Virus record (IMG/VR): IMGVR_UViG_3300028608_000011
Location: 20,008-84,007 of that record
Source of the DNA: a virus
Length of the DNA stretch: 64,000 nucleotides
Strand: one strand, 5' to 3'
Part shown: piece by piece, positions 14,609-54,154 of the stretch
How the letters are laid out: each line of letters opens with the position of its first letter
Numbering within the stretch: the first letter of the stretch is position 1
Notes under the pieces: generated by a model
Database searches by the model: none
Told to the model about the DNA's origin: nothing
The model's input: the letters and a program-made list of their open reading frames with translations, nothing else
Translations under genes and position numbers: made by a program

Positions 14609-14716
14609 ATGGATCCAACCTCCGACGGATGCCACTCTGCCTTCCTTGTGGGCACAGTGGCAAACGGCTATCCTGCGCGCACACGTTATAAGGAAATAGC
14701 CGCTGATGACTACTGA
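14609..14716 (+). CDS. Possible 35-aa ORF before the holin
   Basis: The only open frame in the 104-base gap between the fibre-tip gene and the holin runs from ATG 14609 to TGA 14714-14716, overlapping the holin start by 11 bases. The Shine-Dalgarno is poor and the product (MDPTSDGCHSAF...) matches nothing known. It may be chance; the gap otherwise holds only the holin leader with AAGGAAAT. Confidence 0.25.
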   Translation: MDPTSDGCHSAFLVGTVANGYPARTRYKEIAADDY

Positions 14717-15101
14717 TCCAGCTTCGAGCACAGGATGGCTGACGGTATCTGCAGTCTACGTGTGGGCAGTTCTAGAGCAGCTGCACCCCGGCTCCGCAAT
14801 GGGGGCTTCGTTCGGTTGCGTATTCTTCATTCTTCTCCCGGATCCTGTCGTTTCTTCCTGGTTCCTAAAACTTATTCGCAAAATCGGACTCACAATCGTG
14901 TCCTGGGGTTTCGGCTACGCTGTCGGGATAGCCTTCTCCAGCAACAGTTCGATGTTGGTGGCAGTCATTGGGGCTGCGGTAGCGTCCGGGGTTCTCGGCG
15001 CCATCAATCTGATGGTCAAGAACGATGGCGATCTTCCGCAGTGGATGTCTTCACTGATTAACGCAATCCTACGGTTAAAGCGAGGCGGCGATGAGCAATG
15101 A
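14706..15101 (+). CDS. Holin-like membrane protein (first)
   Basis: A 131-aa membrane protein with about three hydrophobic segments (around 10-50, 55-80 and 82-105) and a basic, charged C-terminus (LRLKRGGDEQ). The size, topology and position directly before a second holin-like gene, the endolysin and the spanins indicate a role in inner-membrane permeabilisation at lysis. Which of the two membrane proteins is the holin and which the antiholin cannot be told from sequence. Overlaps the next gene. Confidence 0.78.
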   Translation: MTTDPASSTGWLTVSAVYVWAVLEQLHPGSAMGASFGCVFFILLPDPVVSSWFLKLIRKIGLTIVSWGFGYAVGIAFSSNSSMLVAVIGAAVASGVLGAINLMVKNDGDLPQWMSSLINAILRLKRGGDEQ

Positions 15102-15408
15102 TCCTACTTACGGGGAAGTGCTTCTGAGCATTCGCATAGTTCTTCACATGATCACTTTTCTGTCGGTGATCGCTTACACCAGCGAACACCGCACCCGGTG
15201 GTTCTCCAGCTTCCTGGCCTTCCTACTGGCCGGTACTTCTCTGGCCCTGGCCACACAGGGCTACTCCGGGTTCGCGAAGATCGCACCCAACTCCGAAATC
15301 TGGCTGGTGCTGTTCGTAGCAGTGGTCACGGTTCTGGTTGTCGCCAACGGCGGCAACGTCGCAAAAGTCTTGCACAACACCCGGAAGAGACTCCCCTATG
15401 GACGATAA
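15091..15408 (+). CDS. Holin, 3-TM family (Phage_holin_3_7-like)
   Basis: A 105-aa protein with three predicted membrane helices (about 10-28, 36-54, 68-86) separated by short loops and a basic tail (NTRKRLPYGR). The pattern of a TSEHRTRWFSSFLAFLLAG segment in the middle fits the three-TM holins of Gram-negative phages. The start overlaps the preceding holin-like gene (GATGAGCAATGA), and its last 11 bases overlap the endolysin start, so expression is tightly coupled. Confidence 0.83.
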   Translation: MSNDPTYGEVLLSIRIVLHMITFLSVIAYTSEHRTRWFSSFLAFLLAGTSLALATQGYSGFAKIAPNSEIWLVLFVAVVTVLVVANGGNVAKVLHNTRKRLPYGR

Positions 15409-15940
15409 AACGCTGGCGGCTGCGGCAGGCATTCCTTTGGCTCTCGCACAGAAGTGGGTAGAACCGATCAACGAGGCGTTGAAGTACGCTGACATCACTC
15501 TGGCCAGGTCGATCGCTTCGTTCATCGCCCAGACCGGGCATGAAAGCCTGGGCTTCTCGGTGACCAAGGAGATGGGCAGCGACAAATACCTGAGCAAGTA
15601 CGACACCGGCAAGCTGGCTGCCAATCTCGGCAACACGCCAGAAGCCGACGGTGACGGTCAGCTGTACGCCGGCCGCGGCCTGATTCAGGTCACGGGCAAG
15701 CGCAACTACGCCAAGTGTAGCCAGGCACTGTTCGGTGATGACCGCCTGCTACAGCATCCGGAGATCCTCGAGCAGCCAAAGTATGCCGCGCTGTCCGCAG
15801 CCTGGTACTGGAAGCTGAACAACCTGAACCGGCTCTCGAACGACATCATGGCCCAGACCAAGGCGATCAACGGTGGCTACAACGGCATCGAAGACCGCAA
15901 GGAGCGGTTCGCGCGCGCGATGAAGGTGTTGGCCGCGTGA
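15398..15940 (+). CDS. Endolysin, glycoside hydrolase family 19
   Basis: A 180-aa chitinase-like lysozyme that cuts the peptidoglycan glycan chain. The GH19 signature is clear: FIAQTGHES with the catalytic Glu (about residue 50) and the conserved YAGRGLIQVTGKRNY loop (about 88-102), then the AAWYW and INGG segments. No signal peptide or SAR domain, so export depends on the holin. ATG at 15398 was chosen because upstream in-frame codons lie inside the holin gene. The 3' end overlaps the GTG start of the spanin. Confidence 0.95.
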   Translation: MDDKTLAAAAGIPLALAQKWVEPINEALKYADITLARSIASFIAQTGHESLGFSVTKEMGSDKYLSKYDTGKLAANLGNTPEADGDGQLYAGRGLIQVTGKRNYAKCSQALFGDDRLLQHPEILEQPKYAALSAAWYWKLNNLNRLSNDIMAQTKAINGGYNGIEDRKERFARAMKVLAA

Positions 15941-16470
15941 TCGAGATCAAGGCGGTGATCATCGCCGTCGGCGCTGCTCTGGTAATCGGGGCGGGCGCCG
16001 GCGGCTACGCTGCCTGGCAGTACCGGGCAATGAAGGCTGACAACGATCTGCTCGATCTGCGCAACACGTTCGACAGCGCCACCGCCGCGGCCAAAGAGCA
16101 GTCGCTGGGCGTAGAGCGAGAGCTGCAGGCCCAGATCAACCAGGTGAGTCAGAAGGGTCGAGATGAAAACCAGAAGATCGAATCTAACGCTGCTGTGGCT
16201 GCTTCCACTACTGGCAGCCTGCTCGCGGCAGCCGATCAGCGTTTCAGTGCCACCGCCTGTGATCCCGGAGTTGCCCGCCGAGGCGCGGCAGCAACCTCGG
16301 CCGCGTATCTGTATTCCCAGCTGCTTGGAGAATCTCAGCGCCTGGCAGAAGGGTTGGCAAAAGAAGCTGACAGCGCCCGAAGCCGAGGGCAGTCTTGTGA
16401 AGCCGCTTACGACACAGTGAGAAGGGGATTGGATTTGTTGCGGAAGGGGGCGGCTGTAACCGCTGGGTGA
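15937..16470 (+). CDS. Rz: i-spanin, Rz-like
   Basis: A 177-aa inner-membrane spanin subunit. One N-terminal transmembrane segment (about 5-26, Ile/Val/Ala/Gly-rich) is followed by a periplasmic coiled-coil region (about 30-100) and a cysteine-containing distal part. It starts with GTG overlapping the endolysin stop (GTGA). Rz pairs with the outer-membrane lipoprotein Rz1, encoded out of frame inside it, to fuse the two membranes at the last step of lysis. Confidence 0.85.
   Translation: MIEIKAVIIAVGAALVIGAGAGGYAAWQYRAMKADNDLLDLRNTFDSATAAAKEQSLGVERELQAQINQVSQKGRDENQKIESNAAVAASTTGSLLAAADQRFSATACDPGVARRGAAATSAAYLYSQLLGESQRLAEGLAKEADSARSRGQSCEAAYDTVRRGLDLLRKGAAVTAG
16163..16420 (+). CDS. Rz1: o-spanin, Rz1-like lipoprotein nested in Rz
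   Basis: An 85-aa gene wholly embedded in Rz in another frame. The N-terminus is MKTRRSN, a Leu-rich core and the lipobox LLAAC (Cys about 20), followed by a Pro-rich segment (VSVPPPVIPELP), the hallmark of Rz1 proteins. The embedded arrangement is one of the known Rz/Rz1 architectures. A second Cys pair downstream (ICIPSC) is notable and could link subunits. Confidence 0.85.
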   Translation: MKTRRSNLTLLWLLPLLAACSRQPISVSVPPPVIPELPAEARQQPRPRICIPSCLENLSAWQKGWQKKLTAPEAEGSLVKPLTTQ

Positions 16471-46212: not shown

Positions 46213-46682
46213 GCGTCACCGCCTTTCGCTTCAACTGTCATTTCGAAACCCACGAACACCGCGCCGCTGGCGTCCATCGGCCCGCCGCTACCCTCCGCGG
46301 TGTGCTGATTGGCAAAGCCGGCCAGGTGATCCTCGAGGGCAGCCTTGGCTGCCTCGATGTTCTTGCCTTCTACGTTCACCTTGCCTACGAAGCGCAGGCT
46401 GTAGCTCAGGTGCTGCACACCCGCCACAGACGCATCGGGCTGGCAGGTGGGTTGGGCAACCACCTTCCAAGCCACGTTGTGGCCTGGCAGATCGCCCAGC
46501 ATGCAGTTGCTGGCGCAGTTGCCGTGGGGGTCAACCTGAATAGGGCCGCAGCCCTCGCAGATTGTGGATACGGCCAGCCCTTTATCCCAGCTCTCGTGAG
46601 AGGTAAGGCCCGCGAGGTCATTTTGTTCAGCCGCTTCTGGGCCGAACATGTCTTCCGTGCACTTCTTGCAAAAGTCAGCCAT
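46197..46682 (-). CDS. Zinc-ribbon protein
   Basis: A 161-aa protein with an N-terminal Cys-rich region: DFCKKCTEDMFG (4-15), then CEGCGPIQVDPHGNCASNC (about 42-60), a pattern common in small phage zinc proteins. The C-terminal half is a beta-alpha unit (LSYSLRFVGKVNVEGKNIEAAKAAL). It overlaps the methyltransferase stop by TAATG, so it is made along with that enzyme. Confidence 0.8.
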   Translation of the reverse strand: MADFCKKCTEDMFGPEAAEQNDLAGLTSHESWDKGLAVSTICEGCGPIQVDPHGNCASNCMLGDLPGHNVAWKVVAQPTCQPDASVAGVQHLSYSLRFVGKVNVEGKNIEAAKAALEDHLAGFANQHTAEGSGGPMDASGAVFVGFEMTVEAKGGDACESV

Positions 46683-48790
46683 TACGCGGTCTCCGCCATT
46701 TTGTTGTCCAGCGCCCAGCGCGGGATGTTTGCTGCTACCAGTGCCCGAGCCAATCCCGGAGGCACCGAGTTGCCTACCATGCGCACCTGTGCATGCTTGG
46801 CCAGTTTCTTGCCCATCACCACCTCGTGCTGGTAATCAGCCGGGAAGCCTTGGCAGCGGTACAGCTCGTGCGGCTCCAGCATTCGCATGCCGATGTCGAC
46901 GATCTGGTAGTCCTGCCCGTGGATGGTGACGATGCCAAAGCGCGCCTTGGCGGTGATGGTGTCCAGCGGCTCATCGCAGCTGACTGCGCCGCCGGTGCCG
47001 TAGAACTTGATTAGGAAGGCCTGCACCTCGGCAAAGTGATTGCCCTGCGCAGCGATCGCATCCAGCGGGCGGTCAAGTGACTGACCGTGCTGGCAGGTGC
47101 CTTTGAGTTTCACCAAGCTGCTGGCGACCAGCGCCGACTTGCCCCCGCCACCGGCGGTGATTGCACCCAGCGGCTCATCGGCGCCGTGGCCGACGCTGTT
47201 ACCGAAGTCGCGCTGGATATGCGCAACGTCGATGGCCTCGTTCAGATCCTGCACCGCATCGATCGGCTCCAGCGCGGCGGTCATCACCGAGTTGTGATCC
47301 TTGGAGGTGATCGTCGGCAGGGGTTTGTCCAGGTGCTGGCCGACCACACCAGTGTAATGCTTGAGCAGCGCGGCAACCTGAATGTGCCGGGCCTTGCTGG
47401 TGACCACTGACAGGGGTTCGTCGAAGCCTTTGGAGGTGTCGCCGCTGCTCTGGTGGTCGATGGTGGTGATGCAGCCCAGTTGAATCGGCTGCAGCTGGGC
47501 TTCCAGCACGCCAAGGGCGTGCGGTGCCCCTGCTGGCCGTGCTGCGCCGCCCCCGGCGGTGATCACCGGCAGAGGGGCATTGCAGCTGGCGCCGCCGGAA
47601 TCACCGCGGAACTTCATGATGGCTGCGGCGGACTGCAGTTCGGCTTCCACCACTGCAAATCGGGTGGCACCCGCCATGACGGTGTCCAGCGGCGCGTCAG
47701 CGCTCTGGCCGACGCTGTTCTGGTTGAACTTGCTCAGCGACACGGCCGTCAGCGCGGTGCCCAGCTTGCTGGTGAGGGTCTGCAGCGGCTCCTCCAGCGA
47801 CTGCCCGCGGAACTGGTCGTAGGCGTGGTTTGTCTTCACGAGGAAGGCGTCGTCACCGGCGCCGATCACGAACTTCTCGATGCCCTTGAAGATTCGCGCC
47901 AGTGTCTTGTCGGCCAGCGGCTTCTTGCGGTCGAAGATAGACGGGCACGGCAGGCTGAAGTCCAAGTTCTCGCCGGCGGTCTTCCACGGCTGCAACTTGC
48001 CCGGGTGGGCCAGGGCCAGCTTCTTCGGTGCGTGGGTAGGTTCCGGCCAGATGATTGGCAGCCCGTCCTTGCGGGCCATCAGGAAGAAGCGGTTGCGGGT
48101 GGTGGGGTCGCCGTAGTCGCAGGCGTTCAGGCCTTTCTCTTTCCACTCGACGGTGTAGCCAGCGGCGCGCAGCTGCTTGATGAACTGCTTGAAGATGCTG
48201 CCCGAACGCTTCTTGTCCGGCACCAGCGCCTGCTCCCAGTAGGGCACGTACTCGCCGGGCTCGCTGACCACTTCGTTCATCACAGGGTCGCCGTTCTTGT
48301 CCTTCTTTTTGTCATCGGCAACCAGTTTGATGACGCGGCCGGTCTTCTTGCAGCGCTTGGCTATGAGAGGGCCCCACGTCATGAATTCCTTCACGTTTTC
48401 CATGAAGAGCATGGCCATGTCGGACTGGCCGATCCACTTCTTGACGATCCAGGCCAGGCCGCGGATCGCTTTCTTCACCGGCTTCCCGCCCTTGGCCACG
48501 CTGAAGTGGGTGCAGTCAGGGCTGAACCAGCCCATCAAGGCTGGCTCGCCGTTCAACGCCGAGAGGATGTCGATGTCCCAGACCGACTCGTTGTAGTGCT
48601 TCGTCTCTGGGTGGTTCTGCTCGTGCATCATCAGCGCTTCGGCGTTGTGATTCACGGCGATGTCTGGGGAGCGGCCATTGGCCTGGGCGATGCCGGTGGA
48701 AGCACCGCCGCCACCTGCGAAGTTGTCGACGACCTTGCCGCCTATCCAGCGATACCCGGCGGGCACCGGGTAACTGTTGATGTCTCGCAT
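46682..48790 (-). CDS. DNA (cytosine-5) methyltransferase with repeat array
   Basis: A 702-aa C5 methyltransferase, transferring a methyl group from SAM to cytosine in DNA. Motif I NFAGGGGAS (about 23-31), motif IV SPDCTHFS with the catalytic Cys93, motif VI FMENV (about 130), motif VIII region DPTTRNRFFL (about 235) and motif X MVGNSVPPG near the C-terminus. Between about 325 and 640, where target recognition is expected, there are about eight repeats of about 36 aa built around (D/E)(E/K/A)PL-x-(T/A)(I/V)T. ATG 48790 has AAGGA at good spacing. Probably protects phage DNA from host restriction; no partner nuclease is adjacent. Confidence 0.92.
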   Translation of the reverse strand: MRDINSYPVPAGYRWIGGKVVDNFAGGGGASTGIAQANGRSPDIAVNHNAEALMMHEQNHPETKHYNESVWDIDILSALNGEPALMGWFSPDCTHFSVAKGGKPVKKAIRGLAWIVKKWIGQSDMAMLFMENVKEFMTWGPLIAKRCKKTGRVIKLVADDKKKDKNGDPVMNEVVSEPGEYVPYWEQALVPDKKRSGSIFKQFIKQLRAAGYTVEWKEKGLNACDYGDPTTRNRFFLMARKDGLPIIWPEPTHAPKKLALAHPGKLQPWKTAGENLDFSLPCPSIFDRKKPLADKTLARIFKGIEKFVIGAGDDAFLVKTNHAYDQFRGQSLEEPLQTLTSKLGTALTAVSLSKFNQNSVGQSADAPLDTVMAGATRFAVVEAELQSAAAIMKFRGDSGGASCNAPLPVITAGGGAARPAGAPHALGVLEAQLQPIQLGCITTIDHQSSGDTSKGFDEPLSVVTSKARHIQVAALLKHYTGVVGQHLDKPLPTITSKDHNSVMTAALEPIDAVQDLNEAIDVAHIQRDFGNSVGHGADEPLGAITAGGGGKSALVASSLVKLKGTCQHGQSLDRPLDAIAAQGNHFAEVQAFLIKFYGTGGAVSCDEPLDTITAKARFGIVTIHGQDYQIVDIGMRMLEPHELYRCQGFPADYQHEVVMGKKLAKHAQVRMVGNSVPPGLARALVAANIPRWALDNKMAETA

Positions 48791-48830
48791 CGTATATCCT
48801 TGAGACGCCACTGGGCGTCCTTGTCGTGGT
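48790..48830. repeat. Inverted repeat GACGCC-CAGT-GGCGTC in the methyltransferase leader
   Basis: A perfect 6-base-arm hairpin (48808-48823) lies about 18 bases upstream of the methyltransferase ATG, just before its Shine-Dalgarno. It could regulate translation or serve as a weak terminator for the gene before it. No U-tract. Confidence 0.4.
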
Positions 48831-53078: not shown

Positions 53079-53240
53079 TCAACTGCCTTTCTTTTTGCGC
53101 AGCTTGCGCAGATGCCACCAGGCCAACACGGCAGCCAGCACCACGGCGCAGAGCACCGTGATGGCCCCGGCGATCAGGCCGATCAGTTTGATGATCAGCC
53201 ACGCCATGACGATGCAGCTGACCATCGTCAGCCAGTTCAT
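53079..53240 (-). CDS. 53-aa two-pass membrane peptide
   Basis: Tiny gene whose ATG 53240 overlaps the stop of the solute-binding protein gene as TGATG. It encodes MNWLTMVSCIVMAWLIIKLI..., two predicted transmembrane helices (about 4-21 and 23-43) and a basic end HLRKLRKKKGS. The translational coupling suggests that it works with the secreted protein. Confidence 0.7.
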   Translation of the reverse strand: MNWLTMVSCIVMAWLIIKLIGLIAGAITVLCAVVLAAVLAWWHLRKLRKKKGS

Positions 53241-54154
53241 CAGCGCACGACCTTGACCGTGCTGTTGATGCCTTTGTCCACCGCGCGGCGAACCGCCGTG
53301 GTTTCGGCTTCATCCAGACCGGTCAGGTAGGCGTTGTTGAAGACCACCTGAGCACGCAGGCAGTAGGTCTTGACGTCGCTGAAGGTGCCCGGGCCTTCAA
53401 GGCCAGACGTCTTGCCTTTCGGGATCGCGCAGTGGGTGTACAGCGGATTGCCGTTGGCGTCCTTGGCATTTTCGAACGAGCTGTCGTCGACGCCGCCGAC
53501 CATGAGCTGGTTGCCGAAGTCGGACGTGATATCAGCCGGCAACATGCCTAGGCGGCCGATGTAAAGCATGCCTGCGATATCGACCCGCACGCCGCTGTCC
53601 ATCGTAAAACCCTGCGCCACGGCTTCTGCCGCGCTGTACCAGTCCTTGAACTCGACCGGCACGGCGCCGGCGTAGTCCTTGTCGGTTTTGATCCAGTTGT
53701 TGAGGGTCACGCTGGCGCCGCTGCCTTTGACGGTGGCGAAGGCGTACTTCTTCATCACCTTGTCGTCTTCCATGTCGCCAAAGTCGTCCACCTCGCCGCC
53801 CTTTGGGTAGAGCCAGTAGACGACTTCCTCGTGGGCGTTGATCGCCTTGAACGAAGCCGGCATGGGTTGGGTGATCACGGCGTCGGCCTGGATGATCGCG
53901 ATGTCGCACTCGCCAGCCTTCAGCTTCTTGGCGTTGTCGACACTGCCGCCGGTGGTCATCACCTTCAGCGTGTTGCCGACCTCGTTGGTGATCTTGCCGC
54001 CGATGCTGGTGGCCAGACCTTCGTAGAAGCCACCGACGCCGCCGGAGCAGAACTTCAGGGTGTCAGGTGGGGCGGCGTATGCCAGGCAGGAGGCAATCGA
54101 GAGCATGGCGCTGACAATCAGGCCTTGCCAGTGGCGGGACGTGGTGTGTCGCAT
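53240..54154 (-). CDS. Secreted TAXI/TRAP-type solute-binding protein
   Basis: A 304-aa protein with a signal peptide (MRHTTSRHWQ, hydrophobic core, cleavage around AYA-APP at about 29) and the start of a TAXI family TRAP receptor: LKFCSGGVGGFYEGLATSIGG, then NAKKLKAGECDIAIIQADAV. The TRAP periplasmic receptor binds a small organic acid, but no TRAP membrane subunits are present. ATG 54154 has AAGGAAAT upstream; the frame extends upstream through the intergenic element and is rejected there. Cys residues (FC, EC, HC, YC) could form disulphides in the periplasm. Confidence 0.82.
   Translation of the reverse strand: MRHTTSRHWQGLIVSAMLSIASCLAYAAPPDTLKFCSGGVGGFYEGLATSIGGKITNEVGNTLKVMTTGGSVDNAKKLKAGECDIAIIQADAVITQPMPASFKAINAHEEVVYWLYPKGGEVDDFGDMEDDKVMKKYAFATVKGSGASVTLNNWIKTDKDYAGAVPVEFKDWYSAAEAVAQGFTMDSGVRVDIAGMLYIGRLGMLPADITSDFGNQLMVGGVDDSSFENAKDANGNPLYTHCAIPKGKTSGLEGPGTFSDVKTYCLRAQVVFNNAYLTGLDEAETTAVRRAVDKGINSTVKVVR

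Follow-up and report, generated by a model that had tools for sequence, protein, structure and literature searches.

Bacteria take up nutrients with periplasmic binding proteins at the front end, and a gene for such a protein in a phage raises the question of what the receptor does there with no transporter of its own. The gene considered here lies in the window, the stretch of DNA that was analysed, which comprises the last 64 kb of an 84,007-base viral record. The record is that of a tailed phage, with genes for a tape measure, a J-like tail fibre protein, a holin, an endolysin and a spanin in the window, and the hosts of the virus are Pseudomonas-like bacteria. A receptor very closely related to that of the window (87.5% identity) is encoded by Pseudomonas phage Lana, an 88-kb siphovirus of a groundwater Pseudomonas (PMC7368026). 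In the window and in Lana alike, the receptor gene and the small gene that overlaps it sit among small genes of unassigned function, and the Lana receptor, gp88, is not among the five virion proteins reported for that phage (PMC7368026). Elsewhere in the window (46682-48811, minus strand) is a gene for a 709-residue C5-cytosine methyltransferase. Its match to Pfam is broken into three parts, which suggests a large insertion between the catalytic motifs.

The receptor gene encodes a TAXI-type periplasmic binding protein of 304 amino acids (53240..54154, minus strand), reading from an ATG at 54154 to a TGA stop that ends at 53240. No sigma-70 promoter was found near the gene, where 0.7 would be expected by chance, and there was no match to RNA families. 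The N-terminus, read by eye as MRHTTSRHWQGLIVSAMLSIASCLAYA before the cleavage site and APPDTLKFCSGGVGGFYEGLAT after it, has a basic n-region, a hydrophobic core and an A-Y-A site followed by Ala; the predicted signal peptide thus covers residues 1-27 (54074..54154, minus strand), and the structural model has low confidence over residues 1-20. An AXA-type signal peptide is visible across the relatives too. A lipobox-like IASC motif (residues 20-23) overlaps the signal peptide in the window receptor and in Lana, so that the protein may be soluble or lipid-anchored; the motif is missing in two further phage relatives (L009 and L011) and in the Pseudomonas prophage copies. Either form is predicted to be periplasmic.

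The protein scores 27.9 bits against PF16868 (Pfam NMT1_3; cut-off 27), and matches TIGR02122 (NCBIfam TRAP_TAXI) with an E-value of 8e-13 at 47.9 bits, under the curated cut-off of 84.35, which six further phage or prophage members that were tried do not reach either. Residues 12-294 match phrog_6856 (E 2.9e-40), an existing phage family with no function assigned, to which the window receptor belongs without difference. When 12 phage members were combined into a profile, it matched TAXI proteins of solved structure with E-values of 2e-15 to 1e-7. The AlphaFold2 model, made from 43 aligned phage sequences (pLDDT 87.1, pTM 0.81), is predicted to have the two-lobed cluster-F TAXI fold: in a Foldseek search of the PDB, ranks 1 to 7 are all TAXI structures (E 6e-15 to 6e-12), with a large gap before the next fold neighbours. 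The preliminary description had proposed a secreted TAXI-type receptor and had named a lack of periplasmic export, or a fold unrelated to type II binding proteins, as grounds for giving the proposal up; the search instead puts seven TAXI structures first, and the proposal stands, with export judged from sequence alone. The top match is the glutamate-bound Vibrio cholerae protein VcGluP (VC0430; 9ibo/8s4j; E 6e-15, TM 0.65, 17% identity). The phage receptor shares its fold with VcGluP and with TtGluBP (TTHA1157; 1us4), at 17-19% identity in structural alignment, and all three are exported, the phage protein as predicted from its sequence. Cys36 and Asp232 are mostly conserved in the phage receptors and missing from the bacterial TAXI proteins sampled.

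VcGluP holds glutamate by Y45, S75, Q93, E125 and the main chain at G156; mutation of Y45 lowers the affinity 213-fold and of Q93 990-fold, and only 54% of TAXI proteins family-wide have Gln at the Q93 position (PMC11574862). Equivalents of the five positions were placed in the phage receptors by profile alignment to 8s4j and counted in 42 phage representatives (85% identity) and 24 bacterial TAXI proteins, all from Pseudomonadaceae. Tyr44 (54023..54025, minus strand, as are the codons that follow), the counterpart of the key glutamate contact Tyr45, is Tyr in 42/42 phage and 18/24 bacterial sequences. At Ser71 (53942..53944), which corresponds to the alpha-carboxylate contact Ser75, the phage sequences have Ser (32/42) or Thr (10/42) and 10 of the 24 bacterial ones have Ser. 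Gln89 (53888..53890), equivalent to Gln93, the key amino-group contact, is Gln in all 42 phage sequences and in 13 of the 24; Glu110 (53825..53827), equivalent to Glu125, is Glu in 42/42 and 12/24; and Gly146 (53717..53719), equivalent to Gly156, whose main chain contacts the alpha-carboxylate, is Gly in 42/42 and 14/24. All five contact positions are therefore kept in every phage representative (with Ser or Thr at one), against 10-18 of 24 per site in the bacterial set, and these counts indicate that the phage lineage keeps one amino-acid-type pocket where bacterial TAXI proteins vary. The ligand of the secreted receptor is almost certainly an amino acid, for example glutamate. We infer specificity for glutamate from the first-shell residues; the second-shell positions S40, Y46 and D157 of VcGluP are not conserved in the phage receptors, so the exact amino acid may differ.

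The receptor is no isolated oddity and belongs to a lineage that is widely spread among phages. In a tblastn search, 305 phage records had a homologue over 80% or more of the receptor length, among them Vibrio T5-like phages, Ackermannviridae, other Vibrio phages, Lana, the jumbo phage Noxifer, rhizobial phages and EBPR siphovirus 2, and with the PBC5 copy as query the rhizobial phages PBC5, Atu_ph08, RHph_I1_18 and BDU-MI-1 were found together with a Vibrio jumbo phage. IMG/VR scans added about 90 loci, and prophage copies are present on five Pseudomonas genome contigs. The window receptor matched nothing in a plasmid search. Starting from a protein of a prophage on a Klebsiella plasmid, a further branch was reached, with 47 phage records, mainly jumbo phages named for Erwinia, Klebsiella and Serratia, that partly overlap the set of 305, and with an E. 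coli lambdoid prophage besides. At least eight unrelated phage backgrounds are represented. Vibrio phage 2.275.O has a divergent TAXI relative (L056:3728-4648) that bears the annotation of a cyclic nucleotide-binding domain protein. Annotation mentions occur in the records of Klebsiella phage FBKp24 and Erwinia phage Asesino; in the open-licence literature no paper was found that describes the function of phage TAXI proteins, TAXI-like phage proteins being mentioned as annotations only, and Ralstonia phage RP12 is reported to have a TRAP-like receptor in the neighbourhood of genes for ABC transporters (PMC5468394). Bug/TTT-type binding proteins are annotated in BFVD for uncultured tailed phages, and such phage receptors may be more widespread.

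In a quick maximum-likelihood tree, with several long branches and a bacterial sample from one family, a single branch (support 69) separates the 42 phage rows from the others, and the corresponding branch has support 92 for the 39 phage rows without the enterobacterial group. With shuffled labels a mean of 19.8 changes is needed, against the single branch that splits off the phage rows. A single origin of the phage receptors is favoured, though not proven, by these sequences, and recent capture from a host is disfavoured, as the phage copies form one lineage. In pairs of Lana-like receptors dN is well below dS.

The preliminary description had noted that no TRAP permease accompanies the receptor, and this extends to the whole 84-kb record, in which nothing matches the DctM permease. 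Among 102 phage loci none has an ORF of at least 250 amino acids with six helices within 4 kb, whereas in the same test 14 of the 18 bacterial TAXI loci have one; relaxing the length limit adds a single phage locus, which has a 227-residue, six-helix TerC-like membrane protein near the receptor (L088:1664-2347). In Erwinia phage Asesino terB lies two genes upstream of the receptor (L160:1219-2729). Some Vibrio-type receptors have beside them, on either side, a membrane-anchored DUF1523/phrog_301-like protein (L004:6900-7247, L006:5589-5897, L101:3887-4219), which has a single helix and is unrelated to the peptides described below. The phage receptor differs from TAXI-type TRAP proteins in lying under the curated TIGR02122 cut-off, in having no membrane QM or fused permease encoded with it and in being coupled to a small membrane peptide. 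Four Pseudomonas genomes that carry a prophage copy, which are drafts (one a metagenome bin) and give provisional results, contain no fused TAXI permease above the cut-off; in three of them no second TAXI receptor is convincing, and in one no GltS appears. Donation of the ligand to a TAXI permease of the host is therefore disfavoured.

A TAXI receptor can have a partner outside the TRAP family. In Bordetella, BP0403 and a GltS carrier form a translationally coupled pair of a TAXI protein and a non-TRAP carrier (PMC12344293), and in P. alcaligenes RU38D a chromosomal TAXI gene lies about 0.7 kb from gltS (G004:C9:682638-685289), a further TAXI-GltS arrangement. The B. pertussis BP0402/BP0403 system and the phage pair are alike in having a TAXI receptor without a TRAP permease and a receptor gene that overlaps a gene for a membrane protein. 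Glutamate is the ligand in Bordetella and the predicted ligand of the phage receptor. The two differ in that BP0403 is a larger, dimeric lipoprotein. The Bordetella partner is a complete polytopic Na+/glutamate carrier, whereas that of the phage is a hairpin of roughly 50 amino acids, with no polytopic carrier nearby.

In the window this partner is a 53-residue, two-helix membrane peptide with a KR-rich C-terminus (53079..53240, minus strand). The overlap previously described as TGATG was found again, the start of the peptide gene overlapping the receptor stop by one base, and the peptide has two hydrophobic segments; transmembrane calls here and below are hydropathy windows, and both ends of the hairpin are probably in the cytoplasm. 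Small hydrophobic, basic-tailed ORFs start between -45 and +60 nt from the receptor stop in 19 of the 42 representatives, two of them dubious with one clear helix each (L079 and L089), compared with 8 of 593 other long ORFs of the same loci; counted differently, the figures are 55 of 98 loci against a background of 6/634. Downstream hairpins occur in at least five deep branches, namely the Pseudomonas phages and prophages, the rhizobial phages, the group of L076 and L078, RHph_I1_18 and the enterobacterial group, in which they begin MLRRLCFLALFVVLL (E. coli) and MLKKIGWLIILAVIF (FBKp24). The hairpins of different groups have no recognisable sequence relation, and it is the length, the two helices and the basic tail that recur.

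Across 16 Pseudomonas prophage copies the hairpin has mean dN of 0.17 and dS of 0.96 (dN/dS about 0.17), which shows real coding constraint. With 305 phage records containing a receptor homologue and hairpins far above background, this ratio places the receptor-hairpin pair beyond chance. Asesino has instead a 60-residue hairpin (gp7) just upstream of the receptor, and small upstream peptides with one or two transmembrane segments in other members without a downstream hairpin are only suggestive, the background at that position being 27/593. The hairpins have no significant match in Pfam, PHROGs, NCBIfam or PADLOC; one of them, that of L077, weakly matches a TciB-like PHROG (E 0.0066). A role in the lysis cassette was ruled out for the window, where the holin, endolysin and spanin genes lie at 14706-16470 on the plus strand, 37 kb away, and where the peptide matches no lysis family.

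Taken together, the locus very probably holds a two-gene phage module, in which an exported TAXI-fold receptor with an alpha-amino-acid pocket (likeliest for L-glutamate or a close analogue) is coupled to an inner-membrane hairpin whose gene overlaps its own. The conservation of the pocket implies that ligand binding matters, the coupled hairpin implies action at the inner membrane, and the missing permease implies that the carrier, if there is one, is that of the host. Since neither the phage loci nor the hosts examined yielded a TAXI permease, the hairpin may be cast as an adaptor or anchor to a host carrier: during infection the periplasmic receptor would close on its amino acid and present it at the inner membrane, and through the hairpin it would dock on, or re-tune, a secondary amino-acid transporter of the host, GltS-like or DctM-like elevator carriers being natural candidates. 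The pay-off would be a supply of nitrogen, carbon or osmolytes for phage production. This presentation to a host carrier, for which TAXI-GltS of Bordetella is the closest precedent, is the favoured reading, and is put forward tentatively, at somewhat less than an even chance. The predicted fold with VcGluP-glutamate as the nearest structure, the pocket kept in 42/42 and the hairpin, coupled in 19/42 and under constraint as a protein, favour it, as does the partnership with non-TRAP carriers described above. It is also favoured by the faster divergence of the hairpin (19-55% identity among Lana-like phages, against 85-91% for the receptor), which is expected if the partner is host-specific; an arms race or relaxed constraint would explain that divergence equally well. 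Further points against a host carrier are the four Pseudomonas hosts with no TAXI permease above the cut-off, one of them with no GltS, the adjacent downstream hairpin missing in about half of the non-redundant members, and the reliance of the glutamate assignment on first-shell residues with no second-shell conservation.

The same architecture would suit a guard at the envelope. T4 has the exclusion proteins Imm and Sp, which are membrane and periplasmic proteins; the phage pair resembles them in combining a membrane protein with an exported one, and no sequence or fold relation has been shown. As a superinfection exclusion or host-takeover factor that works like Imm and Sp and is unrelated to them, the receptor and hairpin could block DNA entry by other phages, or another periplasmic process, at the inner membrane, with the ligand as a conformational switch. 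The fast divergence of the hairpin fits such a role, as does the position of the pair: in two Pseudomonas prophages (L107 and L111) it follows a repressor-like gene on the same strand, and in the E. coli lambdoid prophage it occupies the moron slot ahead of the holin genes, which are separate from it. A blocker has no need of an invariant ligand pocket, however, and the fixed contact positions favour a role that depends on the ligand over that of a purely structural blocker; the carriers include jumbo and T5-like phages of seemingly strictly lytic habit, and PADLOC, whose defence models include few exclusion factors, gave no match. Exclusion or takeover is possible on this evidence and rather doubtful. 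The pocket could alternatively serve a sensor. Glutamate is abundant in cells and could, in the periplasm, report the lysis of neighbours, the closed receptor acting on the hairpin to change lysis timing or membrane state. This would account for a fully conserved pocket with no transport partner and for the coupled hairpin, and in two jumbo-phage relatives a glutamate-receptor-type channel lies directly upstream of a TAXI fusion. Most hairpin groups have almost no periplasmic loop, though, the hairpins have no sequence link to holins or antiholins, and the lysis genes of the window are distant and on the other strand, so that sensing appears improbable. A bolder version, in which one lineage across temperate, T5-like and jumbo phages is a phage-specific glutamate-sensing module that reads the amino acids of lysing neighbours, with the hairpin as the output that alters lysis, exclusion or membrane state, seems a shade less probable still. 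The channel, of the ionotropic-glutamate-receptor type (SBP_bac_3 and Ion_trans_2), is found at L084:2256-4876, L097:2123-4801 and L100; the TAXI domain there is fused to an RRGG/Ser-rich N-terminus and is followed by DUF2491 and a coiled-coil protein. These are jumbo-phage contigs, with a terminase in L084 and L097.

Simple sequestration, in which the receptor deprives binding proteins or chemoreceptors of the host of a periplasmic ligand by titration and the hairpin has a separate job, would agree with phage loci that keep the pocket and have no permease. Titrating an abundant metabolite stoichiometrically with one protein would nevertheless be inefficient, and tight coupling to the hairpin in several distant branches points to a shared task, which makes sequestration a poor prospect. 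That the gene is a passenger acquired from hosts, with no selected function in the phage, is scarcely credible: orphan TRAP receptor genes do occur in bacteria (PMC12344293), but the phage sequences form one lineage across many backgrounds, the pocket is strongly conserved, and dN is well below dS both in Lana-like receptor pairs and in the prophage hairpins.

The module is thus a widespread, uncharacterised phage pair of a predicted amino-acid (probably glutamate) receptor and a membrane hairpin, present in hundreds of sequenced phages and mostly labelled 'hypothetical protein'. If presentation to a host carrier is correct, one phage lineage that keeps an amino-acid pocket without a permease and adds a tiny membrane partner would represent a new way to feed on or tune host transport; alternatively, it would be a new way for phages to sense their surroundings. 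The copy in the E. coli prophage puts the module within reach of laboratory tests.
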